NCBI GenBank assembly: GCA_944391225.1
Contig: CALXSS010000006.1
Span: 1-64,000, forward strand
Direction of reading: 5' to 3'
DNA from: an uncultured Clostridia bacterium
GTDB lineage: Bacteria; Bacillota; Clostridia; UBA1381
Length of the DNA stretch: 64,000 nt
Under the pieces are notes generated by a model, which made no database searches, had not been told where the DNA came from, and saw only the letters and a program-made list of their open reading frames with translations. Positions 45,524 through 57,169 of the stretch are shown here, piece after piece; within the stretch, counting starts at the first letter, position 1; each line of letters opens with the position of its first letter. A program made the translations under genes and the position numbers.

Positions 45524-45812
45524 AGTGGTTCAGCAGGCAGCAAGACAATATGAAGCTGCTTTTGATGCTTTATAAAGCTCAATACGCCATAAAAATCCTT
45601 TAACCGTGCAGTGTTTATCAGGTTTTCGGCATGTAAAGAAATACCGACACTTGTGCATTTTATACAAAAAATATCATATAAATTCATATGTGTGCCAAAA
45701 ACAGCTCAGTGCACAGAAAATATATTGACAATGACTAAATTTTTGTTTGTAATAATTAGTATAATATACAATATATTCAGAGGTGGGTATATGTGGAGAG
45801 AGGAGAATTTTT
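45524..45812. other. Intergenic region before the mosaic secreted protein
   Basis: No gene seen. A TTGACA at 45725-45730 and a TATAAT at 45760-45765 are 29 bp apart, too far for one promoter, so the TATAAT probably works as a regulated or alternative promoter. GAGAGGAG (about 45796-45803) is the ribosome site for the ATG at 45813. Confidence 0.5.
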
Positions 45813-47168
45813 ATGAAACTAAAAAGAATGGTCAGCGTGATGGCTGCGCTGGCAGTGTCGGCAACGACGTTTGCAGGTATGGTGGTAACCGCAAATGCTG
45901 AAGAAGTCAAATATTCGGATAATTTTGAAACAGGACAAGCAAGTTATACGTGGTTTGGAAATGCCGATCAACGCATAATTGCAGACAATGCAACAAAGAA
46001 CAATAAAAATGGTTTTGCATATTCAATTAGAGGAGCTTCAAACGGACGAACAAGACCAGCATGGACTGTTGTCTCTGAAGAAGGACTTATTGGAAAGATC
46101 CATGTTAATTTTAATTTTAGAATGGATACTACATATAATAATACTAGTCCACAAGCGACCATTAAGCTGTTAGGAGCAATCCCGTCAGATGCAAATAATG
46201 ATATTGCAGCTGGCTCAAGTATATTGGAATTTCAGCAGGAATCGTCAAATAACGGTTATGATGCAGTATATAGGTTAAATGGTGAAACAATTACGGGAAT
46301 TTCAAATTACGGAAGCGACTATAGTAGTTCTAGAAATTCAAGCGGTTGGTTGAATATGGATGTTGTAATAGATACAACAGATAAAGTGTTCAATATTAGT
46401 ATTTGTGAAATTGAAAATACAACAGATGGATTTGCAGTAAATGAAATACCAATTTTCTATAAAGATGATGTGGCCTTTTATAGTAATACGGTAGAAAATC
46501 TTAAGAGCTTATATGTATTTTCATCAAGATATCCAACCTATGATGGTGGTATTGTTTGGTTAGATGATATAAATATCAGCACATTGCAAGCACCTAAATT
46601 TACAATGTCTACTGATAATGTTGTAATAGAAGAAGAAGAGGCTTCAACAGTAAGTTTGACAGATGTTTTTGCTAAAACAATAACAGCAAGTTCAAATGAT
46701 ACAGACATTGCTGTTGCTGAATACGATAAAGAGAGCAATGTAATTACAATAACAGGTGTTAGTAAAGGTGAAACAAAAGTATTAGTAAGTGCTGAAAATG
46801 ATGGATTAGTACAACAAGAGTATATTCAAGTGACAGTAAATGAGAAACAGATTGTTTCGACGATCCCATCAGCAGTATCAGCAACACACGTACTGGATTA
46901 TACTGATGAATCTGCAGAGGATGCGGCTACAGGCGCATCACTGTGGGAGGCTCTGATAGAGGGAACAGGCACAGCATACAACGCTTTTGATATTGCAGGC
47001 ACAATAATGAATGCAGAAGGTGTAGTAAAGACAAGTAATCAACAGTATGACATGGGAACGACTATCAGCACAGGTGATGTATATATCTATATAGCTGTAA
47101 ATCAGGCTAAAGCAAAGCTTGCGGATGGACAGACTATGGAGCTGACTGTTACGCCGGTTAGTAAATAA
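45813..47168 (+). CDS. Secreted LamG-/Ig-like protein, compositionally mosaic
   Basis: 451 residues from ATG 45813. Signal peptide 1-29 (MKLKRMVSVMAALAV... ANA). Residues about 30-270 form a LamG/concanavalin-like sandwich (GNADQRIIADNATKNN..., VWLDDINIS), about 280-345 a Big_2-type Ig-like repeat (VVIEEEEASTVSLTDVF...ITGVSKGETKVLVSAENDG), then about 100 residues of unknown beta structure. No enzyme motif. Base composition is abruptly different inside: the signal peptide and the last 100 codons are host-like, but the middle 950 bp is very AT-rich. This suggests the mature N-terminal domains were replaced by acquired DNA. A 55-residue gene follows after 14 bases. Confidence 0.8.
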   Translation: MKLKRMVSVMAALAVSATTFAGMVVTANAEEVKYSDNFETGQASYTWFGNADQRIIADNATKNNKNGFAYSIRGASNGRTRPAWTVVSEEGLIGKIHVNFNFRMDTTYNNTSPQATIKLLGAIPSDANNDIAAGSSILEFQQESSNNGYDAVYRLNGETITGISNYGSDYSSSRNSSGWLNMDVVIDTTDKVFNISICEIENTTDGFAVNEIPIFYKDDVAFYSNTVENLKSLYVFSSRYPTYDGGIVWLDDINISTLQAPKFTMSTDNVVIEEEEASTVSLTDVFAKTITASSNDTDIAVAEYDKESNVITITGVSKGETKVLVSAENDGLVQQEYIQVTVNEKQIVSTIPSAVSATHVLDYTDESAEDAATGASLWEALIEGTGTAYNAFDIAGTIMNAEGVVKTSNQQYDMGTTISTGDVYIYIAVNQAKAKLADGQTMELTVTPVSK

Positions 47169-47182
47169 GGAGGTATATTGAG

Positions 47183-47350
47183 ATGAAGTTTGAAAAACCT
47201 ATTATAAATATTGCTATGTTTGAGATGGAAAGCGTTGCGACACAGGCGAGCACAGGTGTTACAGGACAGTCTAATCTGGATAGTGCAGAGCAGGCTGCAG
47301 CATCAAGCTTGAACGGAAAGAACGGTAAGGCTGTGACATTTGAGTTCTGA
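47183..47350 (+). CDS. Small 55-residue protein, unknown
   Basis: Open frame ATG 47183 to TGA 47350. It starts MKFEKPIINIAMFEMESVAT and ends in a Ser/Gly/Lys-rich tail closing with KAVTFEF. An AGGAGG (47169-47173 region) sits in the right place, directly overlapping the stop of the secreted protein gene upstream, so the two are probably co-translated. No signal peptide, no cysteine, no transmembrane segment. I recall many short clostridial proteins beginning M(K)(F/Y)xKPxIxxxxFxxxxVxT; they have no known function, though some look like leader peptides. Base composition is host-like. A terminator follows at 47397. Confidence 0.7.
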   Translation: MKFEKPIINIAMFEMESVATQASTGVTGQSNLDSAEQAAASSLNGKNGKAVTFEF

Positions 47351-47396: not shown

Positions 47397-47440
47397 AAAG
47401 AGGTATGCGCTGATCTATTGCGTATACCTCTTTGATTATG
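47397..47440 (+). terminator. Terminator after the 55-residue gene
   Basis: AAAGAGGTATGCG (47398-47410) pairs with CGTATACCTCTTT (47421-47433), then TTTGATTATG. Ends the secreted protein unit. Confidence 0.75.
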
Positions 47441-47445
47441 CAAAA

Positions 47446-47479
47446 ACAAAATAAAAGGAACCCTCAGATCAAGGGTTCC
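47446..47479 (-). terminator. Minus-strand terminator of the candidate RNA
   Basis: Minus strand GGAACCCT-TGATCTG-AGGGTTCC (47479-47457) followed by TTTTATTTTGTTTTTG. On the plus strand there is no T-run, so it works for transcription coming from lexA or from the promoter at 47771-47799. Confidence 0.8.
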
Positions 47480-47764
47480 TGTGTCCTAATATTCAGCAAA
47501 AAATATGAATACAGCTAAACGATGAAGTCTGTTACACCAAACAGTGGGGCAAGAACTTCAGCGTTTTATGACCTGCACTTCCATCCGCATATAAGAGCAA
47601 GCCTATCGCCATGTTTTATACGCATCATCCTCTCTGCCGCAGATTAATACACACATACATTAACTTATTTACTTCTACGGCATATCAAGCGCGATGCTTA
47701 GATAATATACCATTTATCTCCATTAGTATGCCGTGTATCTTGCATGAGGCATCATACATACCTC
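47450..47764 (-). ncRNA. Candidate structured non-coding RNA (about 315 nt)
   Basis: A unit with its own promoter (47771-47799) and intrinsic terminator (47446-47479) but no intact ORF over 21 codons. In transcript order it has hairpins ATGAGG/CCTCAT, CGGCATA/TATGCCG, GCGTATA/TATATGC (one G-U pair), TGAAGT/ACTTCA and the terminator. I do not recognise tmRNA, RNase P, SRP or 6S signatures. A tiny frame at 47628-47515 begins MMRIKHGDRLALICGWKCRS, hits a TAA, and reads on as NAEVLAPLFGVTDFIV before a stop, so a broken mini-gene is the main alternative. lexA lies just upstream on the same strand, so part of this RNA may be the lexA 3-prime tail. Confidence 0.45.
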
Positions 47765-47770
47765 ATCATA

Positions 47771-47799
47771 ATTATATCATAGGCAGAATCAAAAATCAA
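47771..47799 (-). promoter_or_regulatory. Promoter of the candidate RNA
   Basis: Minus strand TTGATT (47799-47794), 17 bp, TATAAT (47776-47771), only 39 bp after the lexA stop codon. The likely start is near 47764. Confidence 0.65.
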
Positions 47800-47837
47800 T
47801 ATATAGAATATTACAATTTAATTACATTTATTTCGAG

Positions 47838-48461
47838 CTATTTCAGCATTCTGAACACTCCGACGACCTTTCCGAGTATAGAAACATCATCTGAGATTAT
47901 CGGCTCCATAAAGTCGTTTTCAGGCTGTAGACGGTAATGTCCGTTTTCTTTGTAAAAGGTTTTTACCGTAGCGTCGCTGCCATCTACAAGAGCGGCTACT
48001 ATGTCGCCGTTGTTGGCTGTTGAGCATTTCTCAACGATTATGTGATCGCCGTCGAGAATAGCGGCGTTCACCATAGAATCGCCTGAGACCTTAAGCATGA
48101 ACACCTCTCTGCCGTGAATATAGGAGGCGGGAATGGGGAACTGCTCGCCGCGCTGCTCAACAGCAGTTATCGGCATACCGGCAGTGATCTTGCCGTAAAC
48201 CGGAACATTAACGTATTCCTCTTGCTGTGCTTTATCTTCTTCCATGGGATAATTGATAAGCCTGAGACTTCTGTTTTTTGTAGATTGACGCTCTATATAC
48301 CCGGCGCGCTCAAGCTTGTTCAGTCTTGCGTGAACGGTAGCCGGAGAATTTAAGCTCACTGCTGAGCATATCTCACGTATTGTAGGAGGATACCCGTTTT
48401 CACGGCTCTGCTCATATATATAATCAAGTATTTCATAGTCTTTTTCTGTAAGAACTGACAT
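47838..48461 (-). CDS. lexA: LexA repressor
   Basis: 207 residues. N-terminal winged helix (ILDYIYEQSRENGYPPTIREICSAVSLNSPATVHARLNKLERAGYI), self-cleavage site Ala94-Gly95 (KITAGMPI), catalytic Ser129 (GDSM) and Lys167 (ATVKTF). RecA-stimulated self-cleavage releases SOS genes. AAAGGATGTGG is a usable ribosome site. The promoter at 48522-48550 overlaps a palindromic SOS box, so it represses itself. Monocistronic; the adjacent candidate RNA starts just after it. Confidence 0.96.
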   Translation of the reverse strand: MSVLTEKDYEILDYIYEQSRENGYPPTIREICSAVSLNSPATVHARLNKLERAGYIERQSTKNRSLRLINYPMEEDKAQQEEYVNVPVYGKITAGMPITAVEQRGEQFPIPASYIHGREVFMLKVSGDSMVNAAILDGDHIIVEKCSTANNGDIVAALVDGSDATVKTFYKENGHYRLQPENDFMEPIISDDVSILGKVVGVFRMLK

Positions 48462-48521: not shown

Positions 48522-48560
48522 AGTATATCATAAAAAATGCGAAAAGTCAAACATATGTTT
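48522..48560 (-). promoter_or_regulatory. lexA promoter with SOS box
   Basis: Minus strand TTGACT (48550-48545), 17 bp, TATACT (48527-48522). The palindrome AAACATATGTTT (48549-48560) overlaps the -35; it fits the Bacillota SOS box GAAC-N4-GTTC with outer G/C changed to A/T, so LexA autoregulation is clear. Confidence 0.85.
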
Positions 48561-48631: not shown

Positions 48632-48707
48632 ATACGGCGCGGCTGTATAATATGACAGTGCATGATTACTATATTCCATGCAGCGGTATACGAAAGGAGA
48701 GATAATT

Positions 48708-51700
48708 ATGGAAAAGGTAAAGGCAGAGCAAAGGCTTGTCAAAATACCCACGTATGAGCCGGATACAGCATGTGTTCACCCCATGTTCCTTGATAAGCGC
48801 GTTTATCAGGGCAGCTCCGGCAGAGTATATCCGCACACCGTTACAGAGCAAATAAGCGATGAAAAGCATGAAAAGGAATATACTGCGATATTTCTTGAAA
48901 ATGAATATCTGCTTGTAATGATCCTGCCGGAGCTGGGCGGGAAAATTCAGAGGATATATGATAAAACAAACGGCTGTGATGCCGTATATTATAATGAGGT
49001 CATAAAGCCTGCGCTGGTAGGTCTGGCAGGGCCATGGACAGCGGGAGGCATAGAGGTCAACTGGCCGCAGAATCACCGTCCTTCAACATTTGAGCCGGTG
49101 GATCATAAGATAGAAAACGGCGAGGACGGCTCCGTAACAGTCTGGTGCGGAGAGGTAGAAAAGCTGCAGCATACAAAGGGGATGGCAGGATTTACATTGT
49201 ATCCCGGAAAAGCATACCTTGAGGTCAAGGGGCAGATATATAATCCGACTGAAATTCCTCAGACATTTCTGTGGTGGGTCAATCCGGCAGTGCCGGTAAA
49301 TGAAAACACGCGCGCTGTGTTTCCACCTGATGTGCATACTGTTACGGATCATGCGAAACGTGAAATATCAAAGTTTCCTGTTTCCACAGGTGAATACTGC
49401 GGAGTGGACTACAGCTCCGGAGTGGATATATCAAAGGTGCAAAATATACCTGTACCAACCTCGTATATAGCAAGTCATTCTGACTATGATTTTATGGGAA
49501 GCTATGATTTGGGCAAGGAAGCCGGACTTCTGCATGTAGCAGATCACCATATTTCACCCGGTAAAAAGCTGTGGACATGGGGCAGCGGCGATTTTGGCAA
49601 GGCGTGGTATAGAAACCTTACCGATAACAGCGGAGAGTATGCAGAGCTTATGGCAGGCGTATTTTCAGATAATCAGCCCGGGTTCTCGTTCCTGATGCCA
49701 TATGAGGAAAAGACGTTCAAGCAGTATTTTATGCCGTATAAAAAGATAGGCATGGTCAAAAATGCGTCAAAAGAAGTTGCGGTAAATCTTGAAACTGACG
49801 GCGGCAAAGCGCATATAATGATTTATGCTCCGGCTGAAATAAAGATAACCGTGCTTCTTTCCGGTTCATCAGCGGTTTCATATCTGAAAAAGACGGCTGT
49901 TGTTTCTCCGGAAAAAATTTTTGATGAGGAGATAGAGCTTGATGATGATGAGATAGAAACAAGCCTTAAGCTGGTTATACGTAATTCGGACGGCGAGGAG
50001 CTGTTAAGATACACACCGGAGGCTGAGTTTCATGGAAAGCTGCCGGAGCCGGCAAAGGAGGTAAAGCCGGCAAAGGAGATAGCATCGAATGAGGAGCTGT
50101 ATCTTACGGCAGTGCATCTGGAGCAATATAGGATCACATCAAAGAGGGCTGAGGAATACTATTTGGAGGGCTTGAAACGTGATCCGTTAGATATTCGCCT
50201 TAACAACGGATATGGCAAGCTTGTTTATAAAAAGGGATTATTTGATGAGGCTGAGCGCAGATTCCGCGCAGCTATCAAGCGCTCGGTAAGCCTGAACCCT
50301 AATCCGTACGACTGTGAGCCGTATTACAATCTGGGTCTTGCTCTAAAAATGCAGAAGAGATATGATGAGGCATACGACGCGTTCTTTAAATCTGTATGGG
50401 ACGGAAAGATGCAGGCGAAGGGATATTATCAGTTAGCATGTGTTTCTGCAAAAATGAACAGGTTTGATGAGGCTCTGGAATTTGTGGATCAGTCGCTTGT
50501 GAGAGGCTCGCACAATATGCGCGCGCGCACCTTGAAATGCGCTCTGCTCCGCCACGAGGGCAGAAAAGAGGAGGGCATATGCTTTGCTAAAGAGTCAATA
50601 AAAATAGATCCGCTTGATTTTGGGGGCAGATATGAGCTGTTCTTGATGACTGGAGATTTTGGCGTGCTCAATGAGCTGACTACGATCATGCGCGGAGACC
50701 TGCAAAATTATATAGAGCTGTCCATAAGCTATGCCGAGGCCAACCTGTATAATGATGCGGCAAATGTGCTCGCGTTGATAGCCGAGTCTGATAAGCCAAT
50801 GCTTCACTATTATATGGCTTATTATTCAAAGAGTGATGTGGAGCTTGAGGTTGCGGAAAAATGCGAGAAGGACAGCACATTCCCTAACAGGCTTCAGGAG
50901 ATGTTTGTGCTTTCATATGCTATCGAGCATAATCCGGGGGATTGGTTTGCAAGGTACTGTCTTGGAAATCTGTACTATGACAGAGGTGTATGGTTCAAGG
51001 CAATAAAATGCTGGAAAGAGGCTTTGAAGATAGCTCCGCGCAGCGGAAAGCTTATGCGTAACCTGGCAATAGCAAGCTATAACAAGCTGAAGGACTCAAA
51101 AGAGGCTTTGAGGCTGATGGAGCGCGCAGCGCTGTTTGAGCCTGAGGATGCAAGGCTATATTATGAGCTTGATCTTCTTAGGCAGTTAACCAATTATCCT
51201 GTAAAAAAGCGTCTTAAGGATATGGCAGACAAAATTGAGATGATAGAAAGCCGTGATGATCTGTTTACAGAGTATATCACTCTGCTCAACAGCGAGGGAT
51301 ATTATAAGCATGCTCTGCGTGCCATAAAGCGTCATAATTTTACCCCTTGGGAGGGAAGCGAGGGGAAGATATCAATGCAGTATAAAACCGCTCATATGGG
51401 TTGCGCAAAGGAATGTATTGCCGATGGCGACTATGAGGAAGCGGTAAATCATCTTGAAAAAGCCTTGGTATATCCTGAGAATCTCGGTGAGGGAAAGCTG
51501 CTTGGCAGCAGGGATAATGATATTTACTATATGCTGGGCTGTGCTTACGAAAAAACAGATAAGATAAAATCCATAGAGTATTTCCAAAAAGCTGTTGAGG
51601 GTGAGTTTTCGCTTGAGCTTCCTCGAAATTTCAAGGATATACCGGCGGATATGTATTTCTTCCGTTCTCTGGCTCTTGATAAGCTCGGAGATAAAAAGGC

Positions 51701-52037
51701 TGCTGCCGGAGGCTTCAATACGCTTATAAACTATTGTGAGGAGCATATTGACGAGGTGCCTGAGATCGACTATTTTGCTTTGTCAATGCCGGAGTTTGCT
51801 TTGTTTGATGATGATCTCAAACGAGATAATTATGTCCACTGCTGCTATCTTGCGGCTTTGGGATATTACGGCAAGGGTATGATGGAAAAGTCAGCGGAAT
51901 ATCTTGAAAAGGGATTGGAGCAAAACTGCTCTCATCAGGGACTTCTAAAGCTTAAGAATGCCGATAAGCGCGCGCCTAAAGAAAAGGCGGAGGATAAAAC
52001 GCTCCTGCGTGCCGCTAAATGGGATGCAAAGGCGTGA
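48708..52037 (+). CDS. DUF5107 / tetratricopeptide-repeat protein
   Basis: 1109 residues from ATG 48708 (AAAGGAG upstream; an ATG at 48678 lacks one). Residues about 20-360 match the DUF5107 pattern (LVMILPELGGKIQRIYDKTNGCDAVYYNEVIKPALVGLAGPWTAGGIEVNWPQNHRP), a beta-rich domain resembling aldose epimerase or glycosidase sandwich folds. From about 470 to the end runs a long series of TPR helices. No signal peptide, so it is cytoplasmic. The family is associated with carbohydrate use in gut bacteria but has no proven reaction. Alone between lexA and a terminator; the promoter palindrome suggests regulation. Confidence 0.85.
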   Translation: MEKVKAEQRLVKIPTYEPDTACVHPMFLDKRVYQGSSGRVYPHTVTEQISDEKHEKEYTAIFLENEYLLVMILPELGGKIQRIYDKTNGCDAVYYNEVIKPALVGLAGPWTAGGIEVNWPQNHRPSTFEPVDHKIENGEDGSVTVWCGEVEKLQHTKGMAGFTLYPGKAYLEVKGQIYNPTEIPQTFLWWVNPAVPVNENTRAVFPPDVHTVTDHAKREISKFPVSTGEYCGVDYSSGVDISKVQNIPVPTSYIASHSDYDFMGSYDLGKEAGLLHVADHHISPGKKLWTWGSGDFGKAWYRNLTDNSGEYAELMAGVFSDNQPGFSFLMPYEEKTFKQYFMPYKKIGMVKNASKEVAVNLETDGGKAHIMIYAPAEIKITVLLSGSSAVSYLKKTAVVSPEKIFDEEIELDDDEIETSLKLVIRNSDGEELLRYTPEAEFHGKLPEPAKEVKPAKEIASNEELYLTAVHLEQYRITSKRAEEYYLEGLKRDPLDIRLNNGYGKLVYKKGLFDEAERRFRAAIKRSVSLNPNPYDCEPYYNLGLALKMQKRYDEAYDAFFKSVWDGKMQAKGYYQLACVSAKMNRFDEALEFVDQSLVRGSHNMRARTLKCALLRHEGRKEEGICFAKESIKIDPLDFGGRYELFLMTGDFGVLNELTTIMRGDLQNYIELSISYAEANLYNDAANVLALIAESDKPMLHYYMAYYSKSDVELEVAEKCEKDSTFPNRLQEMFVLSYAIEHNPGDWFARYCLGNLYYDRGVWFKAIKCWKEALKIAPRSGKLMRNLAIASYNKLKDSKEALRLMERAALFEPEDARLYYELDLLRQLTNYPVKKRLKDMADKIEMIESRDDLFTEYITLLNSEGYYKHALRAIKRHNFTPWEGSEGKISMQYKTAHMGCAKECIADGDYEEAVNHLEKALVYPENLGEGKLLGSRDNDIYYMLGCAYEKTDKIKSIEYFQKAVEGEFSLELPRNFKDIPADMYFFRSLALDKLGDKKAAAGGFNTLINYCEEHIDEVPEIDYFALSMPEFALFDDDLKRDNYVHCCYLAALGYYGKGMMEKSAEYLEKGLEQNCSHQGLLKLKNADKRAPKEKAEDKTLLRAAKWDAKA

Positions 52038-52146: not shown

Positions 52147-53673
52147 TTATCTTCTGGTCCTGTCTCCGGAATATCTGGAGTTGGAGCCTTTTGCGCTTGT
52201 TCGGTGCATTTCTGAGTTTCTGATCCGTCTGTCAGGAGCGTTGGTCCTGATCTGACCTTCTTCAAGCCCCTTACGCTTTTTCAGCTGCTGGATCCTGCGC
52301 TTGCGCTCGCGGCGTTTCTTTCTGGAACGGGCTACAGCAGCGATTATGATTATCAGTATAACAGGTATGAATACAAGCGGATTTAGTACGATGCCTATAA
52401 CTATGTGGAAAACATGCAGCACCATATTCTGCTCAACGTCGTTTGCGGCTACAAGATTAGCGCTGCCTATCTCTGTTCCGCGGTACTGATATGATACTGT
52501 TCCGAGTATATCGCCTTTGGAAATAGGAGCATCTATTCTTTCGGGCAGAGAGGTAACAGTCTGAACGTCTGCTGAAATATCATCGCCCGACGGTATGAGA
52601 CCGCTTACCTCACGGTCAACTGTAAGAGTTACTCGTTTGTTTGATTTTGCCTCATATACTGCTGAATCAGACACTATATTTCCAGGGGAAGCGAGAACTC
52701 CGGAATAATAATTATTGAAACCGAAATCCATAAGGTTCTGTGTAACTATATATGAGTAAGCATTTTCCTTTGTGTCAAGATCTTCACACTTAAGGACAAC
52801 CGACAAAAGATTCATGCCGTTGTACTCAGCTGAGGCTACAAGACAATGTCCTGCCTGGCTTGTAGTACCTGTCTTTATCCCCGTATACTGCTTGGAATAA
52901 TAATATGATGAGCGTGACGTGCCAAGGAAAAGATTAGTGCTCGAAAGGTACCTGTCCTGCGAGTATTTGTTTGTCGGCGCGATATGGTATGTTGGCTGCT
53001 TGACTATTTCTCTAAAGGTCTCGTTCTGCATGCAGTATTTTGCAAGTATCGCAAGGTCGCGCGCTGTGGTGTAATGATCGTCATTCTGTGTACCGCAGGC
53101 GTTTACAAAATGAGTGCCCGTCATTCCAAGCTCCTGCGCTTTTGCGTTCATCATATCCACAAATGCCTGCATAGAGCCTGCAACATGAACGGCTATTACG
53201 TTTGCGGCATCATTTGCGCTGTAAACGAGCATTCCGTTCACAAGATCTGTCATGGTCAGCTCTTCGCCTATAAGTATTCCCATGTGAGAATCCTCAAGAG
53301 TTATTGTTTGCAGCGCTTCATAGGTCGCTGTTGTTGTATCGCCCATTTTGCCGCTTTCAATGGCGAGTATGCCGGTCATCATCTTTGTTGTGCTGGCAGG
53401 AAATAGTCTTTCATCAATATTTTTTCCGTAAATTATCCTGCCGGAATTCATATCCATAAGGAGAGCAGCCTCGGCTTTTTCGGTGTTTGGCGGAGTGAGA
53501 GTATCATCTTCCATATATATGGATGATGAATCTGAGACTGCGACAGATTCTGTTGCCGCAGGTTCGGCGGTAGCTGCCGTATCGTCCTCAGGCTCTGCAA
53601 ATACAGGGCAGACAGATGAGAACGCTATCACGGCAGCTGAAAGCAGCGCCGCAAATTTTTTCTTCTTTGACAT
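52147..53673 (-). CDS. D-alanyl-D-alanine carboxypeptidase (low-mass PBP)
   Basis: 508 residues. Signal peptide about 1-26, a Glu/Ala/Thr-rich linker to about 60, then the serine-type carboxypeptidase domain with S94-T-T-K97, S152-A-N154 and K267-T-G269. A C-terminal PBP5-like beta domain (about 300-405) precedes a membrane span (about 420-445) and a very basic tail (RSRKKRRERKRRIQQLKKRK), unusual since DacA-type proteins mostly end in an amphipathic anchor. It trims the terminal D-Ala of peptidoglycan stems outside the cell. GGAGG eight bases before ATG. Monocistronic. Confidence 0.9.
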   Translation of the reverse strand: MSKKKKFAALLSAAVIAFSSVCPVFAEPEDDTAATAEPAATESVAVSDSSSIYMEDDTLTPPNTEKAEAALLMDMNSGRIIYGKNIDERLFPASTTKMMTGILAIESGKMGDTTTATYEALQTITLEDSHMGILIGEELTMTDLVNGMLVYSANDAANVIAVHVAGSMQAFVDMMNAKAQELGMTGTHFVNACGTQNDDHYTTARDLAILAKYCMQNETFREIVKQPTYHIAPTNKYSQDRYLSSTNLFLGTSRSSYYYSKQYTGIKTGTTSQAGHCLVASAEYNGMNLLSVVLKCEDLDTKENAYSYIVTQNLMDFGFNNYYSGVLASPGNIVSDSAVYEAKSNKRVTLTVDREVSGLIPSGDDISADVQTVTSLPERIDAPISKGDILGTVSYQYRGTEIGSANLVAANDVEQNMVLHVFHIVIGIVLNPLVFIPVILIIIIAAVARSRKKRRERKRRIQQLKKRKGLEEGQIRTNAPDRRIRNSEMHRTSAKGSNSRYSGDRTRR

Positions 53674-54003: not shown

Positions 54004-54687
54004 ATGAAGATATTGGTTGTTGATGATGAAAAGCTTTTGGTAAAAGGTATAAAATTCAATCTTGAGCAGGACGGCTATCAGGTTATTACAGCGTTTGACG
54101 GTGAGGAGGCTATTAAGCTCGCGCATGATGACAGTATAGACCTTATTTTGTTGGATCTTATGCTGCCTAAGGTCGATGGCTTCACTGTTTGCCGTACTAT
54201 ACGCGGATTTTCAAATGTACCAATAATAATGCTTACCGCAAAAAGCGAGGATATAGACAAGATACTTGGCTTGGAATACGGCGCTGACGATTATATTACA
54301 AAGCCGTTTAATATACGTGAGGTGACCGCGAGGATAAAGGCGATCTTAAGACGCGTAAATCCGGCGCCTAAGGGAGATAAAAGCAAGGTCCTTGTATCGG
54401 GAGATATAACTCTTGATTATAATTTCAGACGTGCTGTTATAGGCGAAAAAACAATTGAGCTTACAAGCAAGGAATTTGATCTGCTTGAGCTGTTTCTGAA
54501 AAACCCGGGAAAGGTGTACACTCGTGAAAATCTGCTCGATACTGCTTGGGGGATAGGTTATCCGAGCGAGGAGCGCACTATAGATGTGCACATGCGCCGC
54601 CTCAGAGAAAAGATTGAGGAAAACCCGGCAGAGCCGAAATATCTTAAAACAAAATGGGGTGTAGGCTATTACTATAAAAAGGATTAA
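54004..54687 (+). CDS. OmpR/PhoB-family response regulator
   Basis: 227 residues. Receiver domain with phospho-acceptor Asp51 (LILLDLMLPKVDGF), acidic pocket near D7-D8 and Lys in YITKPFN. The C-terminal OmpR winged helix has ELTSKEFDLLELFLKNPGKVYTRENLLDTAWG and ERTIDVHMRRLREKI...WGVGYYY. The first residues MKILVVDDEK are canonical. It is followed after seven bases by the sensor kinase. The target genes are unknown; the trio architecture (regulator, kinase, GerMN lipoprotein-like) is like actinobacterial MtrA-MtrB-LpqB, which controls cell wall and division. Confidence 0.95.
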   Translation: MKILVVDDEKLLVKGIKFNLEQDGYQVITAFDGEEAIKLAHDDSIDLILLDLMLPKVDGFTVCRTIRGFSNVPIIMLTAKSEDIDKILGLEYGADDYITKPFNIREVTARIKAILRRVNPAPKGDKSKVLVSGDITLDYNFRRAVIGEKTIELTSKEFDLLELFLKNPGKVYTRENLLDTAWGIGYPSEERTIDVHMRRLREKIEENPAEPKYLKTKWGVGYYYKKD

Positions 54688-54694
54688 TACCGGG

Positions 54695-56164
54695 ATGAAG
54701 ATATTAAGATCGGCGCCAGTAAAATCGGCGCTGAACAAGCTGCGAGAGAGCATAAGCACAATAAGATTTGCAATGCTTTCGACTTATATAGCAGTAACGC
54801 TGATAACGCTTATTCTTATGTGCGTTTATATTATAGGCATCCTTTCAGAGAACCTGTATTCTGAAAAAAATACTATGCTGTTTGCGAAAGCTAATATAAT
54901 ATCTCAGACGGTCGCAAACGTATGGAATGACGAGGAGGATGCAAATGTTTTATATTTGCGGATAGAGGATATTGTCGAACGCTCTCTGGCAGGAACAAAT
55001 ATTCGCGGCGTTGTAACTAACACCTCGTATATCGTGCTTTATGACAATAACAGCGAGGCTGATATGGTGGGTAAAGTATTTATGCGCGATGTTCTGAAAC
55101 GGGCGATTGACGGTGAGCAGGCCGATTCGATGTTTGATTCTGACAGCGGAAGAACATCTACCGTTTCAGTACCGGTGGAAAAGGACGGCATAATAATTGG
55201 CGGCGTATATCTGGCAGAGAATGTGTCGTCAATAAGCGATACAATAAGTACAATAAAAACAAGTCTTATTATATTCAGTGTGCTCATAATATTTATCATA
55301 GGTATGCTGAGCATAGGGATAAGTTATATTGTGACTCAGCCTATGTCGGAGTTTATAGCGGCGGCAAAGGCTATATCAAAGGGAGATTTCAGCCACCGCG
55401 TATCTGTAAGGGGCGTAAGCGAGATGGCTCAGATGGGCAGAACCCTGAATTATATGTGCGATGAGCTAAACGCATTGGATGAAAAACGAAAGAATTTCGT
55501 CTCCGATGTATCCCATGAATTGAAAACACCTATGGCAGGGATCAAGCTTTTATGTGACAGTCTTGTTGAAGCTGATGATCCTGATATGGATACAATACGT
55601 GAATTTCTCGGCGATATGTCCGAGGAGATAGACAGGCTTACAAGGCTTATTAACCGTCTGCTGACGCTTACTCGTCTTGATGCCGGAACAAACATCAATT
55701 TATCGGAAACAGATATAACTGCATTGACTGCCTCGGTCATGCGTAGCCTTAAGAATCTTGCAAGTGAAAAGGGAATATCTATGGAGTACACCTTCAAGGG
55801 CTGTAATGAACGTTCCTTGATGATAGATTATGATAAGATATATGAGGCTCTTTATAATATTATTGATAATGCGATAAAGTATACGCCCGAGGACGGCGCC
55901 ATTAAGGTGCGGATAGGCAGCGCGGATGGCTTTTGTGTTATTGAGGTGGAGGATAACGGACCGGGCATACCGGATGCTGAAAAGACTAAGATATTCGATA
56001 GGTTTTATCGCCTTGATGATTCTCGTGCGCGCGATACCGGCGGCACCGGGCTTGGATTGGCTATTTCAAGAGAAGCTATACTGCTGCATGGCGGCGATGT
56101 AGAGGTCGAGGACGCGCCAGATGGCGGAAGTATATTCAGGATAAGGCTTCCGCTTGTGAAATAA
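54695..56164 (+). CDS. Sensor histidine kinase
   Basis: 489 residues. Two membrane spans (about 27-52 and 186-208) flank a 130-residue extracellular sensor with no recognised fold. HAMP (about 210-262), then HisKA with the phosphorylated H274 (FVSDVSHELKTPMAGIKLL), and HATPase_c with N-box NIIDNAIKYTPEDGAI, G1 VEDNGPGIPD, G2 GGTGLGLAIS. Kinase of the regulator just upstream, by operon linkage (seven-base gap). The next gene, a GerMN protein, may modulate it as LpqB does MtrB; that last point is inference. Confidence 0.93.
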   Translation: MKILRSAPVKSALNKLRESISTIRFAMLSTYIAVTLITLILMCVYIIGILSENLYSEKNTMLFAKANIISQTVANVWNDEEDANVLYLRIEDIVERSLAGTNIRGVVTNTSYIVLYDNNSEADMVGKVFMRDVLKRAIDGEQADSMFDSDSGRTSTVSVPVEKDGIIIGGVYLAENVSSISDTISTIKTSLIIFSVLIIFIIGMLSIGISYIVTQPMSEFIAAAKAISKGDFSHRVSVRGVSEMAQMGRTLNYMCDELNALDEKRKNFVSDVSHELKTPMAGIKLLCDSLVEADDPDMDTIREFLGDMSEEIDRLTRLINRLLTLTRLDAGTNINLSETDITALTASVMRSLKNLASEKGISMEYTFKGCNERSLMIDYDKIYEALYNIIDNAIKYTPEDGAIKVRIGSADGFCVIEVEDNGPGIPDAEKTKIFDRFYRLDDSRARDTGGTGLGLAISREAILLHGGDVEVEDAPDGGSIFRIRLPLVK

Positions 56165-56176
56165 CGGAGGTGCTGA

Positions 56177-57169
56177 ATGAAGAAAAAAAGAATAGCAATA
56201 GCGATTTCTGCTGCATTGGCAGTCATAGCGGCTATAGCTGCGGTGTTATTCATAAATCTGGATTTCAACGCACAGAAAATATCGGCAGATCTGTATTTTA
56301 TGAACGAGCGCGGCACCGGAATAATAGCGGAAACACACGAGATAAAATACAGAAGCAACTATGATTTTGTTGAAAAAATAATGGAGCGGCTGCGCAAGGG
56401 ACCGTCAGTGTCAAAGCACGGCAGGATAATGCCGCGCGATACTCTGGTCCTGAATATAGAGTTCAGCGCAGATGAGCCTGGCAGCGTAGCGGTGGATCTT
56501 TCTCAGGATTATCTAACAGATAATCCGTCAAGGAATGTACTAAATACCTATGCGGTGGTAAAATCACTTTGTTCTGTAAGCTGGATCTCAAAGGTGAGGG
56601 TAACGGTGAACGGAAATGATATAACCGATGCTGACGGAAATGCGCTTGGATTTGTAACAGCCTCGGATATTAATCTTGAAACTGAGGAATATTCAAGCGA
56701 AATGCGCGATGTGGTTTTGTATTTTGGCGATCATTCAGAAAAAATGCTTGTGCGTGAGGAACGAACTATCAAGATCACCGATCAGCAGCCTATTGAGCAG
56801 TATATAATAAACGAGCTTATAAAGGGACCGGAGAATAAGAATCTTAAATCCGTCCTGTCTCCCGACACGGTGTTGATGTCGGTGGATGTTGAGGACAACA
56901 TATGCTATCTGAATTTTAAAAGCAGCTTTATAAGTGAAAATTCAGGCGACGCCGATCATGAGCGGCTTGTTATATATTCAATAGTAAATTCATTGACTGA
57001 GCTGAAAACTATAAGCCGTGTGCAGTTCTATATGGACGGTAAACGGATAGAATCGTTTGGAAGCTTCAACATAAAGAATTATATTTCGAGAGATATTTCA
57101 ATAATACAGCAGCAAAGCGGCAGCGCGGCGTCATTATTTGACAGCGGCGCTGTTTTTTTTGAAAATTAA
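56177..57169 (+). CDS. Membrane-anchored double-GerMN-domain protein
   Basis: 330 residues. Basic N-terminus with one span (about 5-27); no lipobox cysteine. Two GerMN domains follow: about 35-165 (ADLYFMNERGTGIIAETHEIKY...FVEKIMERLRKGP...TLVLNIEFSADEPGSVAVDLSQDYL...) and about 178-305 (VVLYFGDHSEKMLVREERTI...YIINELIKGPENKNLKSVLSP...NICYLNFKSSFI). In Bacillus, GerM takes part in spore assembly; in actinobacteria LpqB with two GerMN domains binds the MtrB kinase. Co-transcribed with the two-component pair (12-base gap). The last codons overlap the terminator. Confidence 0.85.
   Translation: MKKKRIAIAISAALAVIAAIAAVLFINLDFNAQKISADLYFMNERGTGIIAETHEIKYRSNYDFVEKIMERLRKGPSVSKHGRIMPRDTLVLNIEFSADEPGSVAVDLSQDYLTDNPSRNVLNTYAVVKSLCSVSWISKVRVTVNGNDITDADGNALGFVTASDINLETEEYSSEMRDVVLYFGDHSEKMLVREERTIKITDQQPIEQYIINELIKGPENKNLKSVLSPDTVLMSVDVEDNICYLNFKSSFISENSGDADHERLVIYSIVNSLTELKTISRVQFYMDGKRIESFGSFNIKNYISRDISIIQQQSGSAASLFDSGAVFFEN
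57121..57160 (+). terminator. Terminator inside the GerMN gene 3-prime end
   Basis: CAGCGC (57121-57126) and GCGCTG (57147-57152) form the stem, followed by eight T. The T-run is the codons for the C-terminal Phe-Phe, nine bases before the stop, so termination inside the coding sequence would remove the stop codon from the mRNA. Confidence 0.6.

Follow-up and report, generated by a model that had tools for sequence, protein, structure and literature searches.

The CiaR-dependent csRNAs of streptococci are small RNAs controlled by an OmpR-family two-component regulator. For the WalR regulon, the Bacillus subtilis consensus TGTWAH-N5-TGTWAH has been used for Clostridioides difficile (PMC9210968), and in Staphylococcus aureus a WalR site located upstream of the −35 element is associated with activation (PMC10746227). 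The lexA antisense RNA of S. aureus is a read-through transcript antisense to lexA (PMC8745188). In the literature searched, including work on WalR and lexA, we found no description of the RNA reported here.

In the window (the whole 64,000-nucleotide stretch of DNA analysed), the minus-strand unit at positions 47450–47826 is, judging from sequence comparison, almost certainly a conserved gene for a structured non-coding RNA of ~310 nt. The gene was previously uncatalogued and is specific to one lineage, a group of uncultured gut Clostridia. Following lexA are 38 nt to the RNA promoter, ~310 nt free of long reading frames, and a terminator:

47838–48461, minus strand: lexA (207 aa; Pfam LexA_DNA_bind and Peptidase_S24), directly upstream of the RNA in 6/6 carriers
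47810–47826, minus strand: direct repeat TGTAAT-TAAAT-TGTAAT, an exact match to the WalR consensus TGTWAH-N5-TGTWAH
47771–47799, minus strand: sigma-A-type promoter TTGATT-N17-TATAAT with TG before the −10 (promoter scan)
47489–47764, minus strand: conserved RNA core used for alignment A6
47456–47480, minus strand: intrinsic terminator, then a T tail (terminator scan)

The preliminary description had proposed a complete minus-strand transcription unit at 47450–47799 with its own promoter and terminator. Both elements were found by the scans (47799–47771, and 47480–47456 plus the T tail), but the upstream limit moves to ~47826, the edge of the conserved direct repeat, and the unit is not closed by a terminator towards lexA. 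The TTGATTTTT of the RNA promoter is identical in 6/6 carriers, and the 5 other species keep both promoter and RNA as well as the position of the terminator; transcription of the RNA is very likely driven by this sigma-A promoter of its own. Elsewhere in the vicinity, positions 45783–47350 encode a secreted-type protein of ~450 aa without a Pfam match and then a 55-aa ORF, convergent with the RNA at its end, that may be terminated by a hairpin at ~47402–47433.

The RNA had been said to fit no family that could be named, and the covariance searches agreed for the window and for 4 relatives. At the gathering threshold, the sole Rfam 15 match in the whole window was a tRNA elsewhere, and permissive searches (E up to 10 for the RNA region and up to 1 for the 4 relatives) gave nothing near a cut-off. 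6S RNA (RF00013) was rejected, with no match at the locus and a separate 6S gene in 4 carriers (G001, G003, G006, and G014); 6S genes above the Rfam cut-off lie elsewhere in 12/16 genomes of the genus. Although 12/15 other genus members have a 6S gene, the window's own genome (G000, 81% complete) yielded none, probably because of an assembly gap. A CsrA sponge of the CsrB type, prompted by 3 GGA motifs, was also rejected, as CsrA (PF02599) is absent from 16/16 genus genomes while the control genomes match.

The RNA is located directly downstream of lexA in 6/16 genomes of the genus Candidatus Ornithomonoglobus (Clostridia), in 3 different downstream contexts. When 60 relatives were searched at the DNA level, 5 other genomes of this genus proved to carry the unit, 68–73% identical, in the same orientation and directly behind lexA. 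The covariance model R1, built on the RNA core, matched the same 6 carriers only when run across 70 genomes of the family and 95 of the order, that is to say, no relative of the RNA was found by this model in other genera of either. An exact-pattern scan of ~85,000 genomes returned 5 carriers and 5 scattered matches; one of the latter (L044) gave a weak partial R1 match (20.8 bits, E 0.012), which was judged to be chance. A mobile or phage-borne RNA was rejected: the genome holds a single full copy (other matches are short and partial), and at the sensitivities used the RNA was found neither in viral contigs (exact pattern) nor in plasmids and phages (blastn).

In the LexA tree, the carriers fall in 3 places (a clade of four, G000, and G001), and the RNA is missing beside lexA in at least 5 genus members in which the gene is present and its flank can be read. 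RNA identity between the 3 carrier groups is uniformly 64–71%, with no sign of recent transfer; ancestral presence and repeated loss is therefore the simplest reading. The genus ancestor probably had the gene, with several losses since, which would make the RNA useful but dispensable. G001 has the order lexA-RNA-terminator-metK and its close relative G005 the order lexA-terminator-metK, and the terminator sequence is common to G001 (with the RNA) and G005 (without it), as seen at loci L018 and L036. With the same flanking genes, these 2 genomes offer a clean natural presence/absence comparison.

Across the 6 carriers, pairwise identity is 64–89% for the RNA versus 21–45% for the lexA four-fold degenerate sites of the same pairs (Fisher p 1e-5 to 1e-20 in every pair, window species included). 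The lexA sites are close to saturation, and the difference indicates strong purifying selection on the RNA, also in the window species. The window RNA folds better than 100/100 dinucleotide shuffles (z −3.1), and RNAalifold on A6 gave −40.6 kcal/mol versus −17.9 for column shuffles (z −6.0; 0/200 as low). When the alignment was taken by block, P3-PK was significant alone (z −5.8), as was P4-P5, and P6 was not (z −1.0). The consensus structure, written by hand, has 8 helices and a pseudoknot, and its predicted elements are as follows:

47745–47765, minus strand: helix P1, at the predicted 5′ end
47646–47739, minus strand: helix P2 (47739–47726 with 47658–47646), enclosing the 5′ strand of PK
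47636–47681, minus strand: pseudoknot helix PK, GCCGTAGA (47681–47674) with TCTGCGGC (47643–47636)
47622–47697, minus strand: helix P3 (GCATC 47697–47693 with GATGC 47626–47622), continuing the PK stack
47570–47603, minus strand: hairpin P4, with the invariant loop motif TGCGGAT
47545–47563, minus strand: hairpin P5, weak in the window and strong in relatives
47490–47511, minus strand: hairpin P6 (TATTCA/TGAATA), with a near-invariant outer stem and a variable apical stem that is absent in the window

In this structure, 90% of the cells are paired versus 22–48% with the partners slid, and the covariation score lies above 500/500 shuffles. Counted on hand-aligned strands, 5/6 pairs of P1 are changed on both sides between species, as are 4/10 pairs of P4, which 0/2000 shuffles pair as well; in P2, 95.7% of the cells are paired and one pair is changed on both sides. 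These compensatory changes in P1, P2, and P4 support the predicted consensus fold. The PK helix (GCCGUAGA/UCUGCGGC) pairs in 6/6 carriers with 2 one-sided consistent changes; given only 6 sequences, 4 of them from one clade, it is conserved but lacks proof by double compensation. By inspection, 5/6 sequences form P3 (GCAUC/GAUGC), and the pair count scores P3 of the window as unpaired because the window row of A6 is one column out of register there. The conserved unpaired segments are GGAGAUAAAUGG, AGAGAGGAUGAUGC, and UGCGGAU, and the invariant unpaired motifs include 3 conserved GGA motifs. Of the 4 hairpins originally described, the folded RNA as such was retained, and its architecture is better given as P1, a pseudoknotted P2/PK/P3 domain, P4, P5, and P6 plus the terminator. 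The comparative alignment that had been proposed thus revealed a conserved structure with compensatory changes in 6 carriers, and both marks of a conserved structured non-coding RNA, selection above neutral and compensatory change, were found. The reading as a candidate new RNA held in the Rfam, comparative-structure, and mini-ORF (described below) analyses.

The direct repeat sits 10 bp upstream of the −35 element and is the single exact TGTWAH-N5-TGTWAH match in the 64 kb window, where 0.4 is expected; the window thus has the box of the WalR regulon in its position upstream of −35. A GTAA-N7-GTAA direct repeat stands upstream of −35 in 6/6 carriers. Together with a sigma-A promoter pattern, this repeat gave 31 matches in the 16 genus genomes versus 1 for the reversed pattern. 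Because reversal breaks up the order of the promoter elements too, some of the 31:1 enrichment may be due to promoters in general. Repeat and promoter recur upstream of orthologous DUF348-G5-3D protein genes in 4 genomes and of orthologous zinc-ribbon YARHG membrane protein genes in 7. The loci at which they precede these G5-3D and YARHG envelope genes (L064, L065, L066, L072, L077, L079, L081, L083, L084, L085, and L087) form a candidate regulon. If the box is functional, the structured RNA would be tied to a WalR-type envelope system.

Located 6 kb from the RNA gene is an operon that could supply the regulator:

54004–57169, plus strand: candidate regulator operon (response regulator, histidine kinase, and Germane-domain protein)
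54004–54687, plus strand: WalR/YycF-like response regulator (best NCBIfam match YycF, 258 bits, below the cut-off of 340)
54695–56164, plus strand: histidine kinase (weak Cache_WalK match, below cut-off)
56177–57169, plus strand: Germane-domain protein (Germane match)

This operon is probably the WalRK locus of the genus. A D-Ala-D-Ala carboxypeptidase gene (52147–53673) adjoins it. Neither of the YycF-like candidates tested reaches the family cut-off, at least 13 OmpR-family regulators are encoded in the genome, and PhoP sites resemble the WalR box; the operon is therefore a candidate source of the regulator. As to class, we lean slightly towards a WalR-type response regulator. The direct repeat may well be bound by a WalR- (or PhoP-) type response regulator of the OmpR family, which would activate the RNA together with the envelope genes.

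The position next to lexA had raised a possible SOS linkage. One element of the lexA upstream region bears on it:

48549–48560, no strand assigned: LexA-box-like palindrome AAACATATGTTT, overlapping the lexA −35 (from sequence)

A similar palindrome, CAAACATATGTTTG, is found upstream of lexA in several relatives and is degenerate in the four-genome clade. By inspection, no LexA box, the mark of direct LexA regulation, was seen at the RNA promoter or in its upstream region. The direct form of the linkage is not borne out; the motif at the promoter points to a WalR/PhoP-type envelope regulator instead, and what survives is the indirect route by read-through. Between lexA and the RNA there is no terminator; lexA transcripts are therefore expected to continue through the RNA, which very likely doubles as the lexA 3′ UTR and would thereby gain a secondary SOS input. 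Because the RNA always sits behind lexA, a connection between envelope control and DNA-damage control can be tested directly. On the other side of lexA, a divergent gene for a DUF5107-TPR protein (48678–52037) is a neighbour kept in the four-genome clade and G002.

Taking these observations together, we somewhat favour overall a gene in its own right for a structured, non-coding RNA restricted to this lineage, under WalR-type control and with lexA read-through. A WalR/PhoP-type regulator would bind the repeat upstream of −35 and activate the RNA alongside the envelope genes; the RNA would start from its own sigma-A promoter and end at the intrinsic terminator, with lexA read-through as a secondary input to its level. 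The stable folded RNA might then act post-transcriptionally in envelope homeostasis, conceivably by protein binding or by display of the unpaired GGAGAUAAAUGG, AGAGAGGAUGAUGC, and UGCGGAU rather than by long antisense pairing. A crude pairing scan against the start regions of lexA, the YARHG genes, and the G5-3D genes found 13/14 no better than shuffled targets and no shared site.

Some of the same evidence could be read from the lexA side. The element might be primarily a structured lexA 3′ UTR that stabilises or processes the lexA message, with SOS-induced release as a small RNA being the functional event. The RNA is always directly behind lexA in all 3 downstream contexts, no terminator intervenes, and in G005, which lacks the RNA, lexA ends at the same terminator. 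However, a strongly conserved promoter of its own and the upstream box would be needless for a pure 3′ UTR, and most lexA genes of the genus do without the RNA; we consider this reading unlikely. A similarly small chance is given to a sponge or scaffold RNA that binds a protein, like the 6S or CsrB RNAs, or to a catalytic RNA, for which the compact conserved fold with its pseudoknot and invariant unpaired motifs, including the 3 GGA, would be suitable. By contrast, the 6S genes are separate, CsrA is missing from 16/16 genomes, and no mimicry of RNA polymerase is apparent. A pseudoknotted RNA of a new class, serving as a ribonucleoprotein or ribozyme-like element in an envelope-stress circuit and SOS-coupled by lexA read-through, is a long shot; if true, one RNA would integrate cell-wall and DNA-damage signals.

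It is also quite improbable that the transcript is a small mRNA, in which translation from the conserved GAGAGGATGATG would yield a short peptide, membrane or leader, from an ORF that is broken or shortened in the window species. The frame concerned is the mini-gene of the preliminary description:

47566–47628, minus strand: mini-ORF MMRIKHGDRLALICGWKCRS, 20 codons from 47628 and then TAA; judged not a gene

The 20 codons and the TAA are as described, but the frame is not conserved among relatives. The ORF is open for at least 47 codons in G003, G006, and G007, and a purine-rich SD-like stretch lies immediately 5′ of the ATGATG. In the four-genome clade, 6/10 variable columns over 19 codons fall at third positions (p 0.077), a bias too weak to claim coding, and a leader peptide is possible there. 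Against a small mRNA, the ORFs from the conserved ATGATG in the 6 carriers have 17, 20, 22, 47, 47, and >70 codons with unlike ends, every other carrier has frame-breaking indels relative to G003, the SD spacing of 0–3 nt is poor, and the sequence upstream of the ORF is equally strongly conserved. A search for intact homologues in the sister genomes thus ended in broken frames and 6 different, unrelated C-termini, and the mini-ORF was rejected as a small protein-coding gene. Finally, a decaying intergenic remnant without function, conserved by chance or drift, is scarcely credible: the RNA is missing from at least 5 relatives with a fully readable lexA flank, and P5 and P6 are reduced in the window species, but identity far above the neutral lexA sites in every pair (window species included) and significant fold and covariation speak against it, and the neutral-site and RNAalifold tests already contradict chance or drift.

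The gene for a structured RNA with WalR-type control and lexA read-through, our preferred reading, would give a gut lineage that has been little studied a further RNA family, one whose fold is well supported. Compared with the systems described so far, (i) it resembles 6S RNA as an abundant-type structured RNA gene in Clostridia with its own promoter and terminator, whereas the fold and sequence of 6S RNA are unlike those of the RNA beside lexA; (ii) it shares with the CiaR csRNAs a response-regulator direct repeat upstream of −35 at a small RNA gene, whereas the csRNAs are short and pair with start sites, and the lexA-side RNA is ~310 nt long, pseudoknotted, and without a pairing target found; (iii) it adjoins lexA as does the S. 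aureus antisense RNA (PMC8745188), whereas here the RNA lies downstream, in the sense direction, and has its own promoter; and (iv) it has in common with the WalR regulon of Bacillota the exact box in an activating position, also at a G5-3D wall protein gene, whereas the regulator in this genus is a candidate by sequence and the WalR literature consulted describes no RNA like it.
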